Source: Anaerolineales bacterium (GTDB lineage: Bacteria; Chloroflexota; Anaerolineae; Anaerolineales; DRMV01). Taken from it: a stretch of DNA of 61,823 nucleotides. Positions 11,047 through 61,470 of the stretch are shown piece after piece. The notes below the pieces were generated by a model. The model was not told the origin of the DNA. It saw only the letters and a list, made by a program, of their open reading frames with translations, and made no database searches. The stretch's first letter is position 1; each line of letters starts with the position of its first letter. The DNA lies in assembly GCA_026996855.1 (NCBI GenBank), contig JALWJZ010000023.1, positions 1-61,823 of the forward strand. Direction: 5' to 3'. The translations under genes were made by a program, and so were the position numbers.

Positions 11047-13719
11047 CTACGCGTCGTCCAGCGCTTCGAACCGAGCGGTGAAGAAACGCAGCGTGGGCGG
11101 CTCGTACACCATGCGCAAACCCTTGACTCGTTCCCTGCGTTTCCATACGCCTACCACACCTTCTACCACCACGTCCATGTGGCTGCGGGTGTACACCCGG
11201 CGGGGGATGGTGATGCGCACCAGTTCCAACTTGGGATAACGATGGTCGCCGGTTTTGGGGTCCCGCCCTGCGGAAACCGTGCCTCGTTCCATGGTGCGCA
11301 CCCCGCTTTCCACGTAAATTTCCGCGGCCAGGCGCTGAGCCGGGAATTGGTTCTGAGGAATATGGGGGAAGAAGGCCCGGGCATCCAGGTACACCGCGTG
11401 CCCACCCACCGGCACCACGATGGGAATGCCCTCCTCGTGCAAACGTCGGCCCAGGTAGCGGGTTTGCTCCACCCGCGCCCGAATGTGGTCGTCGTTGACC
11501 ATCTCGTACAGCCCTTGGGCCATGGCCCACACGTCGCGCGGCGCGAGGCCGCCGTTGGCCGCTTCCCCTTCGAAGTGGCGCATAAAGCCCACCATACGCT
11601 CGTACCAGTCCCGGTGACGCACCGCGATGAAACCACCGATGTTCAACAAGGGGTCCTTCTTGGCGGAAAAGGTCAGCCCGTCCGCGTAGGACATGAGTTC
11701 CAGGAGAATGTCGGCCACCGGGCGGCCCTGCTGGCCCGGTTCTCGCTGCTGGATGAGGTAGGCGTTCTCCGCACATCGGGTAGCGTCGAAAATCAAAGGC
11801 ACCCCATACCGCCGGGCCACTTCGGCCAGGCGCCGGGTTGCCCGCAGAGACACGGGCTGACCGCCTGCCATGTTCACGTTCATCTCCAGGCAAATGTAGG
11901 CAACGTTCCCCGGCCCGTGCTCCTGGATGAAGCGTTCCACCGCCTCCACGTCCAGGTCTCCCTTGAAGGGGTAAGGGTCCCGGGGGTTGTGGGCCTGGGG
12001 CACGATGAGGTCCACGAAAATCCCCCCGGCCCGCTCCTGGTGCTCCCGGGTGGTGGTGAAGTACATGTTGTTGATGACGTACTGCCCGGGCCGGATGAGG
12101 GTTTGGGAAAGCACGTGCTCCGCGGCCCGCCCCTGGTGGGTGGGGATGACGTACGGGAAGCCCAGCACCCGGGCCACTGCCTCCTGGAGGGCTTCATAGG
12201 CCCGGTTGGGCGTCATCCCCTCGGGCGCGGCCATGAGGCGCGCCCACTGTTCGCTGCTCATGGCCGCGGTGCCGGAATCGGTCAGCAGGTCCAGGTACAC
12301 GTCTTCCGAGCGGAGCAGGAAGGTGTTGTAGCCCGCCTCGCGAATGGCCCGCTCCCGCTCCTCACGACTGCGACGGATGAGCACCTCCACCATACGCGCG
12401 GTGTAGGGCGGCGTCGTCGCCAGGGCCAGGGGTTCCCCATCCAGTTCGGGGAAATAAGGCGCTTCCGGCTCGAACTGCCACCCTTCGGGGAAGGACCGGT
12501 TCGCGCCCTCCACCGGGTTGAGGGCCGGCACGGTGCGGCCGTATTCCGCCAGCATGCGCAGGGCTTGCAAGGCAAAATCCAGGTGCTCGTTCAAGTGGCG
12601 GCGCAGAGGCAGGGCCAAGAACAGGTCTCGCCCCAGGACCCCTGCCCGCACACCGGTCAACACGTACAACCCCGCGGCCAGTTCGTATCCGGCCCAGGGC
12701 ATCTCACGGCCGGAAAGGGCTGCGGCGTCCAGGCGCAGTCCCCACAGGCTTTCCCCGGCCACGGGCAGCCCGGCCTTCTGGGCTTCTTCGCGCCAGGCCT
12801 GCAAACGGCGCAAATGATGGGTGAACCATTCCCCATGCGCCACCTCGTCCAAACCCCGGGCCAGGGCTTCCATGTCCCGACCCGCCAGACCACCGTAGGT
12901 GTGCAGTCCCTCGAACACCACCACGTAGGTGCGGAACTTGAGGTAATCCTCTTCTTCCCACCCCATGATGAGCGCGCCCGTGTGGGTGAAACCGTCTTCT
13001 CGGGCATTCCACACCACCACCCGGGCCTGCTCGGCCAAGGCCCGCACCTGGTCCAGAGCCTGCTGCGCCGGCCAGACCCGATGCGCCCACAGGAACAAAC
13101 CCGAGGCGTTCAGCAAAACAAAGGCCCCGGCTTCTTGGGCCAGGGCCAGCAATGCCTGCAAATTGTCCGGGTTCCACGTGCGGTAACCCAAGGCTTCGCT
13201 CACGGGGCGAAGGTAAACCAATGGGTCGCGATGCGTCTCCAGCAGATGCTCCCACGCATCCAGGTCGGCTTCCAACCCCTGCGGCCCCTCCCAGACCGCC
13301 ACGGTGTGCAGAGGCGAGCCGAATCGGCCTAAGTGGAAGCGTTCCAGGTCGGTCAAGGCCGGAGCCACCACGGGACGGCCCTCTTGCAAATAAGCGTGGG
13401 CCACCAGGTTCAAAGCGCCCCGACCTCGATGGGCCGGTACCACCCAAGAAACACCAAAACGTTCCCGGGCACGCTCCAGGATGGCATAGAAATTGCGACT
13501 GCCCGCGTAGGCCTCGTCGCCCAGGAGCATCCCGCTCCACTGCCCATCGCTCATGGCATGGTGGCCGCGGAAATGGATGAAATCCAGAAACACGGCCTCT
13601 TCCGGCACGCGGTACACGTTGCAGGCGGAACGGAGCAAAACGGCCCGCCGCTCGGCCAGCGGGGGCCTCGGACGCACTTCCACGGTTTTCAAACGAAAAC
13701 TTTCGGGAGGATAGGACAT
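11047..13719 (-). CDS. Double-domain tryptophanase/tyrosine phenol-lyase-family protein (degenerate N-terminal copy plus canonical C-terminal copy)
   Basis: C-terminal half has 'FDATRCAENAYLI' and 'TFSAKKDPLLNIGGF'; N-terminal half aligns along its length with 'LNASGLFLWAH' and 'VWNAREDGFTHTGALIMG'; ATG with GGAGGCCCACG upstream. Confidence 0.88.
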   Translation of the reverse strand: MSYPPESFRLKTVEVRPRPPLAERRAVLLRSACNVYRVPEEAVFLDFIHFRGHHAMSDGQWSGMLLGDEAYAGSRNFYAILERARERFGVSWVVPAHRGRGALNLVAHAYLQEGRPVVAPALTDLERFHLGRFGSPLHTVAVWEGPQGLEADLDAWEHLLETHRDPLVYLRPVSEALGYRTWNPDNLQALLALAQEAGAFVLLNASGLFLWAHRVWPAQQALDQVRALAEQARVVVWNAREDGFTHTGALIMGWEEEDYLKFRTYVVVFEGLHTYGGLAGRDMEALARGLDEVAHGEWFTHHLRRLQAWREEAQKAGLPVAGESLWGLRLDAAALSGREMPWAGYELAAGLYVLTGVRAGVLGRDLFLALPLRRHLNEHLDFALQALRMLAEYGRTVPALNPVEGANRSFPEGWQFEPEAPYFPELDGEPLALATTPPYTARMVEVLIRRSREERERAIREAGYNTFLLRSEDVYLDLLTDSGTAAMSSEQWARLMAAPEGMTPNRAYEALQEAVARVLGFPYVIPTHQGRAAEHVLSQTLIRPGQYVINNMYFTTTREHQERAGGIFVDLIVPQAHNPRDPYPFKGDLDVEAVERFIQEHGPGNVAYICLEMNVNMAGGQPVSLRATRRLAEVARRYGVPLIFDATRCAENAYLIQQREPGQQGRPVADILLELMSYADGLTFSAKKDPLLNIGGFIAVRHRDWYERMVGFMRHFEGEAANGGLAPRDVWAMAQGLYEMVNDDHIRARVEQTRYLGRRLHEEGIPIVVPVGGHAVYLDARAFFPHIPQNQFPAQRLAAEIYVESGVRTMERGTVSAGRDPKTGDHRYPKLELVRITIPRRVYTRSHMDVVVEGVVGVWKRRERVKGLRMVYEPPTLRFFTARFEALDDA

Positions 13720-13873
13720 CGTGGGCCTCCTGGAAACGAAATCGAACGATGCGGGCCGAAAAGGCATGCTTGTGCCCACAAACCACGACCCGACACCGGT
13801 TTCCTTTGGGATTATACCCAAGGAAACCTCTGGGCCGAGACCCGTAGGTGGACACCCCGTCTTTTTCAAACCC

Positions 13874-22200: not shown

Positions 22201-23382
22201 ATGCGGAAACTTGGCGTTGTGTTGGTGGTGCTGGCCTTGGTGCTGGCGCTGGGCGCCTGTCAACGTGGGCCGAAACAGGCTTACGGTGGCGTCATCAAGA
22301 TCGGGCATGTGGCTCCCTTGACCGGTGAAATTCCCAAAGTCGGTGAGTCGGGCAAGAACGCGCTGACCATGTGGATGGAGGAAATTGGCGGCAAGATTAC
22401 CGTGGGCGGCGTGGAGTACAAAGTGGACATCGTCCACGAAGACAACGAATCCAAGGCCGAATCCGCGGCCGCCGCGGTGACCAAGTTAATCACCCAAGAC
22501 AAGGTACTGGCCATCATCGGCCCCTACGCCTCCAAGCAGGCCATCCCCGCGGGTGAAGTGGCCGACAAGATGAAGACCCCGCTCATCAGCCCCTGGTCCA
22601 CCAACCCGCGCACGACCAAGGGCCGTCCCTTCGTTTTCCGGGCCGCGTTCCTGGATGACTTCCAGGGCCAGGTGCTGGCCCAGTTCGCCCAGGACGAATT
22701 TGGTGCCCAAAAGGTTGCGGTGCTTTATGACGTGGCCAGCGACTACCCCAAGGGCCTGGCCGAATTCTTCAAGGCCGCGGCCGAAGACCTGGGCATGGAA
22801 GTGGTGGCCTTCGAATCCTTCACCACGGGCGACAAGGACTTCAGCGCCCAATTGACCAAGATCATCGACTCGGGCGCAGACGTGCTCTTCGTGCCCCAGT
22901 ACTACAACGAGGTTCCGCTGATTGTGCGCCAGGCCAAGGAACTGGGCTGGGACAAACCCATCCTGGGTAGCGACTCCTGGGGTTCCGCGGAACTCATGAA
23001 ACTGTGCAAGGACGACTGCGTAGGCTACTACTTCAGCACCCACTGGGCCGTTGCCGGTGCCAAGGGCAAGGCCAAGGAATTCATTGACAAGTACAAGGCC
23101 AAGTACGGTGAGGAACCCGACGACGTGGCCGCGCTGGCCTGGGATTCCGCCATGCTGCTCAAGGCCGCCATCGAGCAATGCGGCACCCTGACCGGCGACC
23201 TGGCCAAGGACCGCCAGTGCATCCGGGACGCCCTGGCCAACATCCCCGAGTTTGAAGGCGTCACCGGTAAGATGAAGTTCAACGAAGAGGGCGACCCCAT
23301 CAAGTGCGCCATCATCGTGAAGATTACGCCCGATTACAAATTCTCCTTCTACAAATCCGTGTGCCCGAAGGAAATGAAGTAA
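22201..23382 (+). CDS. Branched-chain amino acid-type ABC transporter substrate-binding lipoprotein
   Basis: Lipobox 'LALGAC', 'IKIGHVAPLTGEIPKVGESGKNALTMWMEEI', 'LAIIGPYASKQAIPAGEVADK'. Confidence 0.9.
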   Translation: MRKLGVVLVVLALVLALGACQRGPKQAYGGVIKIGHVAPLTGEIPKVGESGKNALTMWMEEIGGKITVGGVEYKVDIVHEDNESKAESAAAAVTKLITQDKVLAIIGPYASKQAIPAGEVADKMKTPLISPWSTNPRTTKGRPFVFRAAFLDDFQGQVLAQFAQDEFGAQKVAVLYDVASDYPKGLAEFFKAAAEDLGMEVVAFESFTTGDKDFSAQLTKIIDSGADVLFVPQYYNEVPLIVRQAKELGWDKPILGSDSWGSAELMKLCKDDCVGYYFSTHWAVAGAKGKAKEFIDKYKAKYGEEPDDVAALAWDSAMLLKAAIEQCGTLTGDLAKDRQCIRDALANIPEFEGVTGKMKFNEEGDPIKCAIIVKITPDYKFSFYKSVCPKEMK

Positions 23383-23936: not shown

Positions 23937-24017
23937 CTTGACGGGACATCCAACAACCCGTGGGGGATACCATCCTTTCCAAGGCCCACGGAATTCGGTT
24001 TGCAGGGTAGATTTACC

Positions 24018-27000
24018 ATGCTTATTGTCGCCATTTACCTGGGCCTGAGTTTCGTCTCCATTTTTGTCATCCTTACGCTGGCTTACCAGGTCTGGCTTCG
24101 GCGTCACCTGTTGCCACCGGTCGCCCGGTATTTTCTCTTGGCTTGTCTTGGAGGGCTTTTGTGGGCCGGGGGCGAAATTGGATATATTTTGAGCACCAGC
24201 GCGACGGCTTCCCGCGCCTGGAACGAACTCAGCGTGATTGGCTCCGGCCTGGTACCCTTTTCCTTCCTGGCCTCCTTGGCCGTCTTGAACCGGCGTTTTC
24301 GGCCCTGGTTACGCTGGGCCACTGCGGTGCACATTGCCGTCCTCGTGGGCATCCAAATCTACAAATGGAACCTGCCACCAAACGTGCTTCATCCAAAAAT
24401 TCCGGCCTTCCTGGCAAAACAAACCTACGAACTGACCTATGTCTCGTTACCTTCCCCTGCATGGCTTACCCTGCTCTGGGTGCTCCTTACCTTCGGTTTC
24501 GGCCTGGCCGCCATCGCGTGGTACAGCTATCTGTACGCGCCCGTTTGGAGCCATTCTTCCAAAATCACCCGGGGAATCGAGCTGCTGCTACTGGGACTCA
24601 CCTTGCTGGGTGCTTTCCTGAACATCGTCGATTTCCCGGCATGGTTCCAATACCTGGAAGCCTTCCCCCCTATGTTGTGGTTCTTCTTCCACACCTTCGC
24701 CGGAGGCATTCTTCGCCTCCACTTCGACGTCAGTTCGGCTCTCTCTGGTGAAGCCGTGCTGCACCGCCTGGACGAGGGCACCCTGATTTTCGACCCCCGG
24801 GACCGGCTGATCTGGTGGAACAAAAAAGCCGAGCGACTTTTGAAACTGGAACGAGAAAAACATCGCGGACGCTGTGCCCACGAAGTGTTGGGCCAATGGC
24901 CTTGGCTGCTCCATGTTTATCGTTCTCGAGAAACTTGGCCGCGTCAGGTGCAGTGGCTCGAAAACGGCCATGAACGCACCTGGGAGGTTTACAGCGCCCT
25001 TCTCAAAAGCCCCACCGGCCACGCCCTGGGCTGGACCCTGGTCTTTCGGGACCTGACAGAACAGCGCCGACTGGAACAGGCCCTGCGCTTTCGCGCCCAA
25101 AGCGAAATGCTCTATCGCAGTCTCATGGGCCTGGCCATTGAACCCCTGTCCCCCGACGAAGTCATGAAACAGGGCTTGAAACAAATGTTTCAGACCCTGG
25201 CTCCTTATGGTTTGCAAAGTCTGGCTCTGTATCGGGCTTCCGATGGCATGTTGACCCTCTGGCTGCGAGAAGGTCAATTCACACAGGCCCTTCCGCAAGA
25301 TTTGCCCCTGGAGGACTGGAAGGAACAGCGCTTGTGGGAAAACACCCTTTTTATACCCCTACGAGCCAACGGGGACATCTTGGGGGCATTATGGGCCCAA
25401 TGGAGCGATACCATACTGGACTTGCACAACACCTTACAACAGGCCGGCGAACTGCTGGCCCACCTGGTGCAGGTCAAACACGAAGACGAACACCTCCGCC
25501 TGTTGCGAGAAGTCTATCGAAACATCCAGGATGCGGTGATTTTGTTCGACGGGAACTTCCACATTCTGGCCGTGAACCCCGCTACCGAACGCCTGACGGG
25601 TTATAACGAGGAAGAACTGCTGCACATCGACCTGCCGCAAATTTTTGGTTTTGCCAAGGATTACGCATTACGCGCTTTCCGAGAAATCCGGACCAAGGGC
25701 CAATGGGTCGATCATCTGGACATGCGTACCAAGAACGGCGAACGACGCGTGGTCGAAGCCCGGGTAACCCAGGTACCCTTGTCGGCCAAACGGCATCTGT
25801 TCGTCGCCGTCCTGCGAGACTTGACGGAAACCCAATCCCTTCAAGCCGAACTGGCCCGGCAGCGCGTCATGCTGGAACACCTTTTGAAAGTGGCACGCGG
25901 CATTCTGAGAGCACCCATCCGAGTCGAAAGCGTGTTCGAGCAGGTGGTGGAGGTAGGACGGGACACCACCGGTGCCCCATACTTTGCTTTGGGGCTGCTC
26001 TCTGAAACCGGTCTTTTGCAAGACTTGCTCATGGCCCAGTACGGCACCCAACTGGACAAAGATTTCCTGAAACGACAAATTCAAACGAGCCTGGAACAAG
26101 GGGTCCTTCGCGAAATCATCCAGCGCCGCGAGGTGGTCTACGTGGGCGATGCCTCCACCCAAGCCCCCTGGTCCCATCAGGCACACCTGTATCCATGGCG
26201 GGCCATTTTCATCGTGCCTTTGTTCTACGGCAAACAGCCTTTGGGATTCTTCTTTGCGGGGCATACTCGGCCCCACGGTTTCACCGAGGAACATCAACGC
26301 ATCCTTCAGGGATTGGCCGAAATCCTGGCCCTGGGGCTGCATCAAACGCGGCTTTACGAAGAGCAAATTCGCCTGGCCGACGAACGCTTGCGGGCCAAAG
26401 AGCGGGAAGAGTGGCTACGTCGGCGAGAAGAGCGCTTCTTTGCCAACATCAGCCATGAAATGCGCACACCTTTGCAAATTTTGTTGGGCTACTTGGAAAT
26501 GTGGACCACCCAATACCCTGACGATACCCCCCTGGCCGCAATACGAAAGGAAATGAACGAGGTGCAAGCCTCGGCCCAAATGTTGCATTCCCTCATCGAT
26601 CAACTCTTGGACTTTCAAAAGACCAAAGCCGAGCCGCAAATTGTGGCGAAGGATTTCACCTGGAAAACGGTCATGGAGGAAGTTCTCCCGCTTGTGGAAC
26701 CTCTCATGGCCCGCAACCAGAACGAGTTTCACGTGGACGTGGACACGGACCTGGAAATGCACACCGATAGCGGAAAACTACGGCATATCTTGCTCAATCT
26801 TCTCAGCAACGCTGCCAAGTTCACCTTGCAAGGCGAAGTCCGCCTTTCGGTCTGTGCGCGAGAGCGCAACGGCGTGGAAGGGGTGGAAATTCGGGTCTCG
26901 GATACGGGCATCGGCATTCCCGAGGATGCCAAAGAGGCCATTTTCGCGCCCTTCGTCCAGGCCCGCACCGAAATTGCCCACCGCTTTGGAGGTACGGGCC

Positions 27001-27173
27001 TGGGGCTGGCCCTGGTGAAAGAGTACGTGCATTTGCTGGGAGGGGAAATCGTGGATGTGGAAAGCCAGGTGGGCCAGGGGACCACTTTCATCGTTTGGCT
27101 TCCCCGCCGGGTGCACCTTCAACAAGAGGAGCCATCCGAAAAAACCGACGAGTCCACCCCAGAGACGGGGTAG
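24018..27173 (+). CDS. Sensor histidine kinase: N-terminal multi-TM region, PAS, GAF, HisKA-HATPase
   Basis: H-box 'FFANISHEMRTPLQILLGYLEMW', N-box 'LLNLLSNAAKF', G1 'DTGIGIPEDA', G2 'GGTGLGLALVKEYV'; PAS segments with 'RLIWWNKKAERLL' and 'HILAVNPATERLTGYNEEELL'. Confidence 0.93.
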   Translation: MLIVAIYLGLSFVSIFVILTLAYQVWLRRHLLPPVARYFLLACLGGLLWAGGEIGYILSTSATASRAWNELSVIGSGLVPFSFLASLAVLNRRFRPWLRWATAVHIAVLVGIQIYKWNLPPNVLHPKIPAFLAKQTYELTYVSLPSPAWLTLLWVLLTFGFGLAAIAWYSYLYAPVWSHSSKITRGIELLLLGLTLLGAFLNIVDFPAWFQYLEAFPPMLWFFFHTFAGGILRLHFDVSSALSGEAVLHRLDEGTLIFDPRDRLIWWNKKAERLLKLEREKHRGRCAHEVLGQWPWLLHVYRSRETWPRQVQWLENGHERTWEVYSALLKSPTGHALGWTLVFRDLTEQRRLEQALRFRAQSEMLYRSLMGLAIEPLSPDEVMKQGLKQMFQTLAPYGLQSLALYRASDGMLTLWLREGQFTQALPQDLPLEDWKEQRLWENTLFIPLRANGDILGALWAQWSDTILDLHNTLQQAGELLAHLVQVKHEDEHLRLLREVYRNIQDAVILFDGNFHILAVNPATERLTGYNEEELLHIDLPQIFGFAKDYALRAFREIRTKGQWVDHLDMRTKNGERRVVEARVTQVPLSAKRHLFVAVLRDLTETQSLQAELARQRVMLEHLLKVARGILRAPIRVESVFEQVVEVGRDTTGAPYFALGLLSETGLLQDLLMAQYGTQLDKDFLKRQIQTSLEQGVLREIIQRREVVYVGDASTQAPWSHQAHLYPWRAIFIVPLFYGKQPLGFFFAGHTRPHGFTEEHQRILQGLAEILALGLHQTRLYEEQIRLADERLRAKEREEWLRRREERFFANISHEMRTPLQILLGYLEMWTTQYPDDTPLAAIRKEMNEVQASAQMLHSLIDQLLDFQKTKAEPQIVAKDFTWKTVMEEVLPLVEPLMARNQNEFHVDVDTDLEMHTDSGKLRHILLNLLSNAAKFTLQGEVRLSVCARERNGVEGVEIRVSDTGIGIPEDAKEAIFAPFVQARTEIAHRFGGTGLGLALVKEYVHLLGGEIVDVESQVGQGTTFIVWLPRRVHLQQEEPSEKTDESTPETG

Positions 27174-54713: not shown

Positions 54714-55433
54714 TCACGAAGACCCTTCCAGCACCTGCCGAAACAAAACCTGCAACCGGGCCACGTGGCTGCCCGGCCAGTACACCCGGCCACACGCGGG
54801 ACACCGGCGGAAACGAGTATGGGTGCGCCAGATGTAAGGGGGAACCTGGTCGGCCACTGCCTCCCGAGGCACGTCCACCAAAGGCTCGTTGCACCGGGCG
54901 CAACGATGAAAAGGCCGTGCCCATCGGGCCAGGGCGAAATAGCGGGCCACCTCTTCCAATTGTTTGGCAGGTTGCAAGGAGCGCAACCAATACCCCATCT
55001 TCACCTGGTTGCGCTTGAGCAAACCCTGGTCCCGAGTGAGCAGGATGCGCTCCTCCGCCGCGGCCAGTTGGGCCAGGTGCGGGTCGTCCCAGTCCGGGTC
55101 GTAGAGGGTATCGAAACCCAGGAGGCGCAAGTACGCGACCAGGCGGCCCAGGTGGCCGTCGGCCACGAAGCGGGGCGCGTGGGCGTAGGGCCACGCCTCC
55201 CCCGGAAGGAAGGGGTACACGTGGAATTCCTCCCCCTCCTGCACCTGGTGGCTCCAGGGCACGGGCTGCCCATCCTTTTCAATACGGGCCACTTCGGGAT
55301 GGGGCACCCCCAGGGCTTCCACCAGATGTTTGACCGTCTGGGGGGCACGAAATTCCACCGTCACCGGCCGGTGACGCCGGGCCTTGGGGAGGAAATCCCA
55401 CAGGGAACCGTAGAAGACGAAACGGGCTTGCAT
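54714..55433 (-). CDS. Mut7-C RNase-domain protein with N-terminal ubiquitin-like domain and zinc ribbon
   Basis: 'RFVADGHLGRLVAYLRLLGFDTLYDPDWDDPHLAQLAAAEERILLTRDQGLLKR', CxxC pairs 'CARCNEPL...CPACGRVYWPGSH'. Confidence 0.88.
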   Translation of the reverse strand: MQARFVFYGSLWDFLPKARRHRPVTVEFRAPQTVKHLVEALGVPHPEVARIEKDGQPVPWSHQVQEGEEFHVYPFLPGEAWPYAHAPRFVADGHLGRLVAYLRLLGFDTLYDPDWDDPHLAQLAAAEERILLTRDQGLLKRNQVKMGYWLRSLQPAKQLEEVARYFALARWARPFHRCARCNEPLVDVPREAVADQVPPYIWRTHTRFRRCPACGRVYWPGSHVARLQVLFRQVLEGSS

Positions 55434-55479
55434 GATGGGTGAAAGTGCGAATGGGTCTCGGGAGGCCCCAGGGACACAT

Positions 55480-56316
55480 TCAGTCGTTCGGCCCGCGGCC
55501 CGTTTCGGGAAGGCGAAAGCGTCGGCGGGCGTGGGCCGTGGTGGCGCGAGCCACCTGGTCGAAGGGCACCCCTTTCACTTCGGCAATCTTTTCGGCCACG
55601 AAGCGCACATACGCGGGTTCGTTGCGTTTGCCCCGGTAAGGATGGGGCGTGAGGAAAGGCGCGTCGGTTTCCACCAGGAGGCTCTCCAGAGGCGTCTGGG
55701 CCACCACCGCGCGCAGGGTGTCGGCCTTCTTGAAGGTGACCGGCCCGGTGATGCCAATGGCGAAGCCCAGGTCCAGGGCCTGCTCCGCTTCCTCCGGTCC
55801 CGCGGAAAAGGAATGCAACACCCCTCGAGGATGGTCCGAAGGAAGGGTGACCGCCCAGGCCCGCAACATGGCCAGCAGGTCCTGGGCCGACTCCCGCTGA
55901 TGAAGGATGACGGGCAACCCCAGTTCGCGAGCCAGGTCCAGTTGCGCTTCCAGCGCCTGCTTCTGCAACGGGGGCGGGGTAAAGTCCCAGTGATAGTCCA
56001 GGCCAATTTCGCCAATGGCCACCACTCGGGGGTGGCGGGCCAGTTCTCGCAGGCGGGCCAGGGTGTCGGCGCCGTGCCAGGCCTGGGCCACGCTGTTGGG
56101 GTGGACCCCCACCGCAACGTACAGTTGCAGGTCCGGCGTGGAAGCGGCGTCGGCCAGGGCCAGCGCCTCACCAGCCGTGGTGGCATCCAGGGCCGGCAGG
56201 ATGACGGCCACCACACCGGCTTCCCGGGCCCGCCGCAACACCTGGTCCCGGTCCGGGTCGAAGGCTTCGAAATCCAGATGGGCGTGGGTGTCGATGAGGG
56301 GCGCCGTCATGGTCAT
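55480..56316 (-). CDS. tatD: TatD-family DNase
   Basis: 'LIDTHAHLDFEAFD', 'IGEIGLDYHWDFTP', 'VILHQRESAQDLL', 'LLVETDAPFLTPHPYRGKRNEPAYV'. Confidence 0.94.
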   Translation of the reverse strand: MTMTAPLIDTHAHLDFEAFDPDRDQVLRRAREAGVVAVILPALDATTAGEALALADAASTPDLQLYVAVGVHPNSVAQAWHGADTLARLRELARHPRVVAIGEIGLDYHWDFTPPPLQKQALEAQLDLARELGLPVILHQRESAQDLLAMLRAWAVTLPSDHPRGVLHSFSAGPEEAEQALDLGFAIGITGPVTFKKADTLRAVVAQTPLESLLVETDAPFLTPHPYRGKRNEPAYVRFVAEKIAEVKGVPFDQVARATTAHARRRFRLPETGRGPND

Positions 56317-56451
56317 CTCCGTGGCCAGCGAGACACCTCACGGTTCAAAAACGCAAAGCGGCATGGCCTCCCAACCCGCGAGAGGACCACACCGCTCCTC
56401 GATTCCTTGCGCACCAGGGCGTGGAAGGTCCAACCCCGGTCTCCCAGAACC

Positions 56452-57114
56452 TCACGGAATTTGCAGCACCTTTCCCAGAGGCAGGGGCTTGTCCATATCC
56501 GCCAGAGGGATGCCGTTGGCCTGGGCAATTTGCTCCGGCCACACATCGCCGAACTTGCAAGCGATTCGGTACACGGTATCCCCTGCCTGTACCGTGTAAG
56601 TGGTGGGATGGGCACGCAACGCGCGCGGCACGCCTTCCGGCCAGGGCCGGGCGTTCTCGGGAATGATCAGCACCGTGCCCGCGGGCGGACGCGCCCCTTT
56701 GCCCAGGCCGTTGGCCCGGAGCAAATCATCCGGGTGGATGTTGAAGCGCCGGGCGATGCAGTAAGGGAATTCTCCGTATTTGAGGATGTACTTGTCCGGC
56801 ACCCGCAGGTTCAGGGGCGTGGGGGAAGGCTGGGCCGGTGGTTGAGTCGGCACCGGAGTGGGCGTGGGTGGCACCGGTGTTGGGGTAGGCGGCTGCGTCG
56901 GCATCGGGGTGGGTGTGGCCTCCACGACCGGGGTCTGCTCTGCCTGGGGCGCCAGGGGGGTTTCCCCCATAACGGCTATCTCGCCCTCAGGGGTCGCCAG
57001 TTGAATTTCAATGGTGGGCGTGGGCGGCATGCCCTGGCTGGCGGAACGGGTACACGCCAACGCCAAGGCCAGGAAGAGGACCAGGCCCAGCACGACAGGT
57101 TTCCAAATACGCAT
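56452..57114 (-). CDS. Lipoprotein with LysM domains and Pro/Thr-rich linker
   Basis: Lipobox 'LALAC', 'YILKYGEFPYCIARRFNIHPDDLLRANGL' and 'YTVQAGDTVYRIACKFGDVWPEQIAQANGI'. Confidence 0.87.
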   Translation of the reverse strand: MRIWKPVVLGLVLFLALALACTRSASQGMPPTPTIEIQLATPEGEIAVMGETPLAPQAEQTPVVEATPTPMPTQPPTPTPVPPTPTPVPTQPPAQPSPTPLNLRVPDKYILKYGEFPYCIARRFNIHPDDLLRANGLGKGARPPAGTVLIIPENARPWPEGVPRALRAHPTTYTVQAGDTVYRIACKFGDVWPEQIAQANGIPLADMDKPLPLGKVLQIP

Positions 57115-57213
57115 CTCCAGACTCCTCCAAAAGGATTAGTGTATTTTTACCGCAAGACCGAAAAAACGTCAAACGCCTGCACCCTGCATCCCGCTTTCGG
57201 CCTCCAGATACGA

Positions 57214-57245
57214 TTTGGGAAAGGCCCCAAGGGACCTTTCCCAAA
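57214..57245. repeat. Inverted repeat TTTGGGAAAGG-10 nt-CCTTTCCCAAA
   Basis: 11-bp perfect arms. Confidence 0.8.
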
Positions 57246-57311
57246 CCCCAGTCGCCACATTTCCCACGAGTGGGCTTTTTCAAAGCCGGCCGTTCCCCTC
57301 CAAAAAGGGGA

Positions 57312-57671
57312 CTACCCTTCGGCCGCCTCTTCCCCGCCGCTTTCCTTGCGCAGGGGCTTGGTGGTCTTTTCCAGCAGGATGCTCCCCTGCTCTTTGACCT
57401 CACCCAGGCGCTCCTGTACCACCTGGCTCAGTTCTTCCACCTTGGCCCGCAATTCCCGCAGGGCCTCTTCGGCCTTGCGGCGGGCTTCTTCGGTGCTCAT
57501 CGCGGCCTTTTCCTTGACTTCCGTGGTTTTCTCCCGAAGGAGCGCCCGGGTCTCCTCACCGGATTGCGGGGCATACAACAGGGCCAAAATGGCACCAATG
57601 GCACCACCCACCAACAACCCGGCCATGAAGGCTCCAAAATCGTTTCGCTCGGCCATGGCTTCACCTCCCAC
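57312..57671 (-). CDS. YtxH-domain-like protein
   Basis: 'FGAFMAGLLVGGAIGAILALLYAPQSGEETRALL' then long coiled region. Confidence 0.82.
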   Translation of the reverse strand: MGGEAMAERNDFGAFMAGLLVGGAIGAILALLYAPQSGEETRALLREKTTEVKEKAAMSTEEARRKAEEALRELRAKVEELSQVVQERLGEVKEQGSILLEKTTKPLRKESGGEEAAEG

Positions 57672-57694
57672 GTGAGATTGGGTAGAACGTCTGT

Positions 57695-58093: not shown

Positions 58094-58728
58094 AAGCCGC
58101 TCCTGCTTGCATGCTCATTATAACCGGCTTCCTCCGCTCCCAAAGCAATTTCTGGCAGGTCCGACTCTCGAAATTCGTCCACCTGATAAACCCACACCCG
58201 CAAGGGCCGATGCAACCAGGCATCGGGCGGCAAACCGGCCTTGAGGCACAGATGGGCCAGGAAGACCCGCGGGTCGGGCAACTTTTCCCACACCTGGGGC
58301 AGGAAGGTAGCACGCCGACCCGTGGCCGGGTCCTCGATGACCACCCCGTCCACGCCGGGCCGCAATCGACGCAACAAGTCCTCGGGGTCCCGATATCCCA
58401 GAGGCTGCAAAGGCGTGAGCACCGAGACCTCCACCTCGATTTCCGGCAACTCGTCCGGGGTCACCGGGGGGAAGCGGGGGTCCTGCAACGCGGCCGCCAC
58501 CGCGTGCACCCGCACGTCCTCGGCCAGGGGCAGACGCGGCTCCAAAGCGCCGATGCACCCCCGCAATTCACCGTTACGGTACAGGGTGACGAAGGACGCG
58601 CCCGGCTCCCGCAAACGCGGGGGAAGCCGATCCCACGGCACGGGGGGCAGTTCCAGGCCCCGTACCCCGTACTCCAGAGCCTCACGCGCCAGTTTCAACA
58701 ACCAGCGTACCTCTTCCTTGGTCCACAT
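58090..58728 (-). CDS. AMMECR1-domain protein
   Basis: 'ASFVTLYRNGELRGCIGALEPRLPLAEDVRVHAVAAALQDPRFPPVTPDELPEIEVEVSVLTP'. Confidence 0.92.
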   Translation of the reverse strand: MWTKEEVRWLLKLAREALEYGVRGLELPPVPWDRLPPRLREPGASFVTLYRNGELRGCIGALEPRLPLAEDVRVHAVAAALQDPRFPPVTPDELPEIEVEVSVLTPLQPLGYRDPEDLLRRLRPGVDGVVIEDPATGRRATFLPQVWEKLPDPRVFLAHLCLKAGLPPDAWLHRPLRVWVYQVDEFRESDLPEIALGAEEAGYNEHASRSGL

Positions 58729-58845
58729 GGCATCTACCTCGTCCCAGGCTCGGATGGCAAAAACCCTCCTCTCGTCCACGCGACGAACCGACGTTCGCCG
58801 TGCACCTTTAGCATAGCACCAAAAAATCAAAACAACCTAAGAATT

Positions 58846-59829
58846 TCAGGGATGGGGAGGGTATTGCCCGGCCACCCGAAACAGGCGACCCTCGGCCTGG
58901 GCCAGGGTGGTGCGAAAGTCCACGGCTTCTTGGGGAAGGGCGCGGGCCAGGGCATGCAAGGCTTCGGGCTTCTCCCGAGAAAACAGGGCCAGGAAGGCCC
59001 AGGGCGTGGTTTCCCGATGGCCGGGGGACCAGGTGCTCACCAGGGGGCGGTAGGCCAGACGCAGAGCAGGATGCAACCTCTGGAGGCGCACTTCCACCGT
59101 GGGCTGCTGACGGGCCTCGGCGGCCAGGGCCACGGCCACCCCTCGACCGTGTTGGGCATCCCACAGCAGGGCCAGGCCGGGCAAAAAGGCGTGGTCCCGA
59201 GCCGTGGGCCGCGGGGGTTTGCTTCCCTGCGGGGTGCGGGCCCGGGGCGAGGGCAGATAGGGCGCGTCTTCCGAATACAGGGGCGGCGCCTCTTCCCAGG
59301 GCCAGGGCGGCCCCAGCACCACCAGCCGCGCGGGGGAAGGGTGCAGACGCAAGGCCCCCACCTGGGCCAGGGACCGGGGTTTCTTGCGCATCCGCAAGAA
59401 GCCAAAGGGAAACCAGCCCAACCCCCAGCGGTGTCGCGACGAGGTCACGGGCCGCAGGGGTCCCACCTCCAGGAGGGTGATTTCATCCACCTCCAGGGGC
59501 AGGCGCCCCTGGTGCGCCAAATGCAGTCGCCATTGCACCAGGGGAAAGGTGGCGTGCAAACGGAACTCCAGGGCCACCTGCAGACCCTGGTCGTCGGCCT
59601 GCCAGGTTGCCCGCCCTTCTTTACGAAGGGCTTGCAGACGCTGCAGGTAGGGACGATGCAGGTAGCGGGAGCGCTTGTGACGATAGGCCACGCCAAAGGT
59701 GGCCTGCTCCAGGTAAGGGTCCTCGAACCGGCGACCGTACAGGCCCCAACTCCACATGGCCTCGTCCAATTCGTCCCGCCGGGGCATCACGTAGACCTGC
59801 CAGTCGGGGTTTTCCATCCACAGTTGCAT
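58846..59829 (-). CDS. Protein of unknown function, beta-rich
   Basis: Long ORF; longer ORF start (59889) would read through a palindromic repeat, so MQLWMENPDW is preferred. Confidence 0.55.
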   Translation of the reverse strand: MQLWMENPDWQVYVMPRRDELDEAMWSWGLYGRRFEDPYLEQATFGVAYRHKRSRYLHRPYLQRLQALRKEGRATWQADDQGLQVALEFRLHATFPLVQWRLHLAHQGRLPLEVDEITLLEVGPLRPVTSSRHRWGLGWFPFGFLRMRKKPRSLAQVGALRLHPSPARLVVLGPPWPWEEAPPLYSEDAPYLPSPRARTPQGSKPPRPTARDHAFLPGLALLWDAQHGRGVAVALAAEARQQPTVEVRLQRLHPALRLAYRPLVSTWSPGHRETTPWAFLALFSREKPEALHALARALPQEAVDFRTTLAQAEGRLFRVAGQYPPHP

Positions 59830-59858
59830 GGATTGCCTCGCTTTCGGGGAAGGGCCAT

Positions 59859-59890
59859 ACCAAAGCGGTGCCGAGGCGCCGCATTCCAAA
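59859..59890. repeat. Palindromic repeat copy 1: CCAAAGCGGTGCCgaGGCGCCGCATTCCAAA
   Basis: Shares flanks and hairpin with 59912-59945 and 61724-61755. Confidence 0.88.
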
Positions 59891-59911
59891 AGGCTTGGGA
59901 AAATTCACGTA

Positions 59912-59945
59912 ACTCCAAAGCGGTGCCCAGGCACCGCACAAAAAA
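59912..59945. repeat. Palindromic repeat copy 2: CTCCAAAGCGGTGCCcaGGCACCGCACAAAAAA
   Basis: Same family as copy 1. Confidence 0.88.
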
Positions 59946-59952
59946 CGACCCC

Positions 59953-61470
59953 TCAGAAAGGCGGACGCAGCCGGCCGTACCACTTCCACAAGGAGGTTCG
60001 GCCGGCGTTGCCCGTGCGAATGATTTGCGCGGCCTTGCGCGCGGCCTCGTGGGCCACCAGGGTGGCCAGAAGCGCGGCGATTTCCGGGTGGGTTTCCTGC
60101 ACCCCCGCATGGTGGTCCGTCATGGAGAAGCGCTCTTCCACGAAGCGGGTGTCGAAGTGCCCGGCCAGGAAGCGGTACTGGGCCAGCATGCGCTGGTGGA
60201 AGGGGATGTTGGTCTTCACACCCAGGATTTTGTACTCCTCCAGCGCTCGGCGCATGCGCAAAATGGCCTGGGCCCGGGTTTCCCCCCACACGATGAGTTT
60301 GGCGATGAGGGGGTCGTAGTAGGGGGTGATTTCCATACCCGTGAACACGCCGGTATCCACCCGCACCCCCGGGCCCGTGGGCGGGCTGTGGTAGAGCAGG
60401 GTGCCGATGGAGGGCATGAAATCGTTGTAAGGGTCCTCCGCGTTGATGCGGGCCTCGATGGCCCAGCCCTGCATGCGGATGTCCTGCTGGCTGTAGCGCA
60501 ACGCGCGGCCCCGGGCGATGCGAATCTGCTCCTTCACGATGTCCACGCCGGTGACCAGTTCGGTCACGGGGTGCTCCACCTGGATGCGGGTGTTCATTTC
60601 CAGGAAGTAGAAGTTGCGGTCCTGGTCCATGAGGAATTCCACCGTGCCCGCGTTGACGTAATCCACCGCGCGGGCCGCGCGCACGGCCACCTGGCCCAGG
60701 CGCTGCCGCAGTTCTTCGTCGTCGCCCACGAAGGGGGAAGGTGCCTCCTCGATGAGTTTCTGGTGCCGACGCTGGATGGAGCACTCCCGCTCGCCCAGGT
60801 GGATGGTCTGGCCGAAGGAATCGGCCAGCACCTGCACCTCGATGTGCCGCGCGTGCTCGATGAGTTTCTCCAGGTACACCCGTTCGTCGCCGAAGGCCGA
60901 TTTGGCCTCCTGGCGGGCCAGTTGCAGCGCGGAGGGCATTTCCTCCGGGGTGCGCACGATGCGCATGCCCTTGCCGCCGCCCCCGGCCGCGGCCTTGACC
61001 ATGACGGGGAAACCAATGCGATGGGCCGCTTCGATGAGTTCCTGGTCGCTCAGGTCCTCGGTGGCCTCGGTGCCGGGCACCACGGGCACCCCCGCGGCCT
61101 TCATGCGGGCCCGGGCCTGCATCTTGTCGCCCATGGCCGCGATGGCCTCGGGTGAAGGACCGATGAAGGTGATGCCTTCGTCCTTGCAGGCCTGGGCGAA
61201 ATCGGGGTTCTCCGCCAGGAAGCCGTACCCGGGATGGATGGCCTCCGCGCCGCTCTTCTTGGCCACGGCCAGGATTTTCTCCATGTTCAGGTACGACTCG
61301 GTGGCCGGCGCGGGGCCCAGGGGGTAGGCCTCGTCCGCGTAGCGCACGTGCAGCGCGGTGCGGTCCACCTCGGAGTACACCGCGACGGTGCGCAGGCCCA
61401 GTTCCCGACAGGCCCGCAAAATGCGCACCGCAATCTCGCCCCGGTTGGCAATGAGCACCTTGGTAAACAT
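59953..61470 (-). CDS. accC: Acetyl-CoA carboxylase biotin carboxylase subunit (copy 2)
   Basis: '[36 protein letters not shown]', '[17 protein letters not shown]', '[33 protein letters not shown]'. Confidence 0.94.

Follow-up and report, generated by a model that had tools for sequence, protein, structure and literature searches.

An 890-aa protein of an Anaerolineales bacterium consists of two tandem halves of the tyrosine phenol-lyase (TPL) type. Judged from its sequence, it is, at a probability of roughly 80%, a single-chain pseudo-heterodimer with one composite active site formed between the N-terminal (N) and C-terminal (C) halves, and most likely a TPL; the pairing of the halves, the site, the activity and the substrate are all predictions. 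With slightly less assurance, the protein is probably a natural obligate single-chain pseudo-heterodimer within the TPL/tryptophanase family, in which reciprocal loss has split the active site and left one working site per chain. The gene lies in a stretch of 61,823 nucleotides, referred to here as the window.

In ordinary TPL and tryptophanase, both identical subunits of the catalytic dimer contribute to each site: one holds PLP and substrate, and Tyr71, residue 288 and Tyr291 of the other reach into it. The fused protein probably arose when a TPL gene was duplicated in tandem and fused, with the two copies then degenerating complementarily, such that the C half would hold PLP and substrate while the N half would supply the residues of the neighbour. 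A C:C pair would be incomplete because both lent tyrosines are missing from the C half, and an N:N pair would be incomplete because the N half lacks the PLP chemistry; a complete site would therefore form only by N:C pairing, exactly one per chain. The folds could pair in this way within one chain or swapped between chains, and the mirror-image site would lack what each half should bring to it. With two chains the usual four-fold assembly would be restored, carrying two active sites rather than four. The predicted reaction is the beta-elimination of L-tyrosine to phenol, pyruvate and ammonia.

The two halves of the fused protein

A preliminary description, made from the letters of the window, had reported a single 890-aa frame with two tandem folds of the tryptophanase family. 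The frame is exact at 11047-13719(-), with no internal stop across 890 aa, and PF01212 (Pfam) matches the chain twice (Table 1). Residues 437-885 align without gaps to the solved TPL 1c7g (E=1e-157), and the C half shares 51-52% identity with solved TPLs in fold comparison; the N half alone (residues 1-363) matches TPL with E=1e-42. The two folds were also borne out by monomer structure prediction. Given the N half by itself and 38 further aligned rows, AF2 produced a complete TPL fold (pLDDT 89.8, pTM 0.89), for which TPL structures were the best Foldseek matches (TM 0.86-0.87), and the C half reached a target-normalised TM of up to 0.96 to TPL structures. In the AF2 model of the full chain, where the N half had one other aligned row, each half was folded and the relative placement of the two was of low certainty (pTM 0.59).

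Table 1. Positions in the window of the fused gene, its parts and its diagnostic residues (TPL numbering for equivalents)
Feature	Positions	Strand	Basis
Shine-Dalgarno-like AGGAGG, 6 bases 5' of the ATG at 13719	13726..13731	(-)	sequence reading
Gene for the fused double TPL-type protein, 890 aa + stop	11047..13719	(-)	ORF; homologue with the same architecture
N half, residues 1-385: TPL fold without PLP chemistry, putative donor	12565..13719	(-)	alignment, AF2, Foldseek, dN/dS
Y71 of N half = TPL Tyr71 = E. coli TnaA Tyr74; kept	13507..13509	(-)	alignment, PMC2770544
N204 of N half, at catalytic Asp214 position; lost	13108..13110	(-)	alignment
R240-E241 of N half, at Lys256-Lys257 (PLP Schiff-base Lys); lost	12997..13002	(-)	alignment
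L272-Y275 of N half = TPL M288-Y291 = E. coli Phe304-Tyr307; kept	12895..12906	(-)	alignment, PMC2770544, PMC5805759
Linker, residues about 386-430	12430..12564	(-)	lowest conservation of all parts, 44% identity across the two species
C half, residues 431-890: PLP- and substrate-binding TPL half	11050..12429	(-)	alignment, Foldseek
M502 of C half, at Tyr71 position (Ser in the other species); lost	12214..12216	(-)	alignment
D645 of C half = Asp214; kept	11785..11787	(-)	alignment
K687-K688 of C half = Lys256-Lys257 (PLP Lys); kept	11656..11661	(-)	alignment
E719-N722 of C half, at Met288-Tyr291 positions; both lost	11554..11565	(-)	alignment
R812 of C half = Arg381, TPL-specific; kept	11284..11286	(-)	alignment

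The tryptophanase label should give way to TPL-type: the diagnostic residues make the C half TPL-like and not tryptophanase-like. The TPL-type set T124, M379, R381, F448 and F449 is kept in full in the C half of both species that carry the fusion, and the TnaA-type residues D124, I381 and H448 are absent, their places being taken by T, R and F. These residues point to TPL and not to tryptophanase chemistry. There is less certainty about the substrate because the C half alone falls under the NCBI cut-off for TPL, scoring 629 bits against the 720.7 bits of the TIGR02618 equivalog, and the whole chain exceeds that cut-off, at 771 bits, only through summing of the scores of both halves. Automatic annotation of the full chain would probably return an "ordinary TPL" and overlook the fusion. 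A search of the genome for the aromatic amino acid permease PF03222 found none. An ordinary single-domain tryptophanase with D124, I381 and H448 is encoded on another contig of the same genome (C112; L001:1393-2769(-)), and it clusters with the tryptophanases of its genus and family.

Reciprocal loss of own and lent residues

Evidence for a divided active site came from an alignment of 59 rows: the four halves of the two fused proteins, 54 single-domain relatives within the order, and a TPL whose structure has been solved and whose numbering is used here. The division into own and lent residues was drawn partly from the literature; residues 69 and 288 were taken to lie across the interface, and most own-subunit residues were assigned, in keeping with known TPL structures. 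The N half keeps 3 of 21 own-subunit residues (G52, G99 and R100). It has lost T49, S51, Q98, F123, T124, N185, D214 (now N), T216, R217 (G), S254, K256 (R), K257 (E), N262, M379, R381, R404, F448 and F449. The replacement of its Lys and Asp, as claimed in the preliminary description, was confirmed: positions 256, 257 and 214 read R, E and N in the N half of both fusion genomes, as opposed to K, K and D in 54/54 single-domain relatives. The possibility that the N half retains an equivalent PLP lysine nearby was looked into as well, and no substitute was found close to the position, the nearest conserved N-half lysine being K261, about 20 residues downstream.

The four lent residues of the N half (E69, Y71, L288 and Y291) are all kept in both species, L288 being the residue found in the order's own TPLs. 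The C half presents the mirror image, with 21/21 own-subunit residues kept, including the TPL-specific T124, M379, R381 and F448, and one of the four lent residues kept (E69), position 71 being M or S, position 288 E and position 291 N. Y71 and Y291, like K257 and D214, are each present in 54/54 single-domain relatives. The importance of the lent tyrosines is known from mutants. In E. coli TnaA, Tyr74 and Tyr307 (TPL residues 71 and 291) form hydrogen bonds to the phosphate of the PLP in the adjacent subunit, and the Y74F mutant is almost inactive (PMC2770544); in TPL, the activity of the Y71F mutant on L-Tyr was below detection (PMC5054688). Phe304 of tryptophanase has been equated with TPL Met288 (PMC5805759).

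The split between own and lent retention is the same in both species, with a Fisher p of about 0.002-0.003 for each half. Within the lending segments 54-80 and 280-310, whose limits were drawn around the known lent residues after the sliding profile had been seen, so that the p-values are descriptive, the N half has retained 36/38 of the positions that never vary among the order's TPLs, and the C half 19/38; outside these segments, the N half keeps 43-47 and the C half 146-147 of 175. With no segments chosen, 14 of 186 invariant positions are lost in both halves, where about 23 would be expected under independence (one-sided p=0.0006). These data show that the losses in the two halves avoid each other.

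From this pattern of residues, the likeliest role of the N half is that of donor to a composite active site. The preliminary description had called the N-terminal copy dead, which is right for its own PLP chemistry and probably wrong if taken to mean discarded or purely regulatory, since the lent residues are kept. It had also noted that the C-terminal copy keeps the Lys and Asp contexts, which is the case (K688, D645); that copy is not intact either, the essential Y71, residue 288 and Y291 having been lost. Of the three roles that it had offered (a pseudo-heterodimer, a regulatory domain or a changed lid), the reciprocal loss favours the first.

A different arrangement, in which the C halves of two chains pair up and catalyse a changed reaction without Tyr71 and Tyr291, the N half being merely a scaffold or stability domain, is unlikely. 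It accords with the presence in the C half of all PLP- and substrate-holding residues that were checked, and relatives embedded in PKSs have Tyr71 replaced, Tyr71 having been argued to be dispensable for some substrates (PMC3870968). However, the PKS domains also lack Arg381 (PMC3870968), which the C half keeps, and C:C pairing offers no reason for the retention by the N half of 36/38 invariant residues specifically within the two lending segments.

Selection, origin and distribution

A second species of the same genus (an Anaerolineales MAG; L008/L063) carries an in-frame 888-aa homologue with the same fusion and the same residue pattern. The two fused proteins are 71% identical in the N half and 91% identical in the C half. 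Comparison of the two genes gave dN/dS values of 0.14 (N half), 0.33 (linker) and 0.07 (C half), which shows that purifying selection acts on each half, though less tightly on the N half than on the C half. The fusion is conserved by itself, because the neighbouring genes differ between the two species.

In the tree, the C half is nested among the TPLs (SH-aLRT 96), and the N half sits on a branch of about 10 substitutions per site, at which length its placement is uninformative. The diagnostic residues of the N half, 15 TPL-like and 7-8 TnaA-like, suggest that it too is of TPL origin, which would fit duplication and fusion of a TPL gene. The strong divergence of an N half that is nonetheless folded and under selection could also be read as the mark of an allosteric or ligand-binding regulatory domain derived from the old active site. 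This reading is more doubtful still than C:C pairing, since conservation within the N half is highest in the segments that face the neighbour, not in the pocket. The N half may nevertheless have a regulatory role in addition to its proposed role as donor.

Searches with the N half through 400 genomes of the order, 396 of the class and 400 of the phylum returned, beyond the two fusion genomes, only ordinary single-domain relatives, and in same-family genomes with matches these were tryptophanase-type genes only. A peptide-pattern scan of 84,980 species genomes, with narrow patterns that may miss distant fusions, found the second species only. The carriers found are two genomes of one genus. Although restriction to just two MAGs of one genus could point to a decaying tandem duplication or to an assembly or frameshift artefact, which the preliminary description had listed as a possible objection, this is very improbable: an artefact is ruled out by the same uninterrupted in-frame ORF in a second species with different neighbours, decay is ruled out by dN/dS values of 0.14 and 0.07, and the gene has a Shine-Dalgarno-like start.

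Comparison with known systems

The closest known system is TPL itself (EC 4.1.99.2; for example that of Citrobacter freundii, PDB 2ez1 and 2ycp), whose fold is common to both halves. The C half shares about 52% identity with solved TPLs and has every TPL-specific residue that was tested, and the lending segments of the N half are at best 80-95% identical to the TPL consensus of the order. TPL is a single-domain protein of about 456 aa, whereas the fused chain has 890 aa and two folds; each half lacks residues that the single enzyme has, and two folds would form one composite site where TPL has two. Tryptophanase (TnaA, EC 4.1.99.1) belongs to the same family and makes the same use of neighbour residues (Tyr74 and Tyr307 in E. 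coli), but has D, V, I and H where the C half has T124, M379, R381 and F448.

There are parallels in other PLP enzymes. In glycine decarboxylase, the N-terminal PLP fold lacks the lysine and the C-terminal half is active (PMC7259800). The single-chain GcvP/GLDC P-protein follows the same principle as the fused TPL-type protein, with two PLP fold-type-I halves in one chain and one half without the PLP lysine, and some of its N-terminal residues are counted as active site; it differs in family and reaction, and the fusion is independent. In the fused TPL-type protein, too, one half lacks the PLP lysine, and selection retains both halves. For the LCB1/LCB2 serine palmitoyltransferase, a heterodimer with a single active site has been proposed (PMC3794620). 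Similar to the N half, one of its subunits lacks the PLP residues and offers other catalytic residues, but the two are encoded by separate genes and belong to a different fold-type-I family. No report of a fused or pseudo-heterodimeric member of the TPL/tryptophanase family was found in the open-access literature. The principle of a dead half aiding a single active half is thus known from glycine decarboxylase and LCB1/LCB2, and is apparently new for TPL/tryptophanase.

The fused protein would be a clear natural example of how a shared active site can degenerate in complementary ways once a gene has been duplicated and fused, and its enzyme family is well studied, with many structures and mutants. 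The residues of the TPL site that serve their own subunit appear to have come apart, in nature, from those that are lent, such that cross-interface residues, and likewise the kinetic effect of a single site per dimer, could be probed with simple mutants. TPL is used for making L-DOPA and tyrosine analogues, and a one-site scaffold would allow one half to be changed with the other left untouched.

Genomic setting

The genome around the window is a draft of 2.56 Mb, with an Anaerolineales MAG (WFUL01000050) as its nearest named relative. The fused gene lies between argininosuccinate synthase/lyase and 3-hydroxyacyl-CoA dehydrogenase (Pfam), and its homologue in the second species is flanked by his genes; comparison of the neighbours in the window and in the second species found no conserved operon. 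Elsewhere in the window, ORFs of 747 and 1014 aa at 55432-57675(+) and 58111-61155(+) have no Pfam match at E <= 1e-8. A periplasmic amino-acid-type binding protein (Peripla_BP_6) is encoded at 22201-23382(+), and a 1057-aa ORF at 24000-27173(+), within a stretch of lower GC (0.565), encodes a sensor histidine kinase that has multiple PAS and GAF domains.
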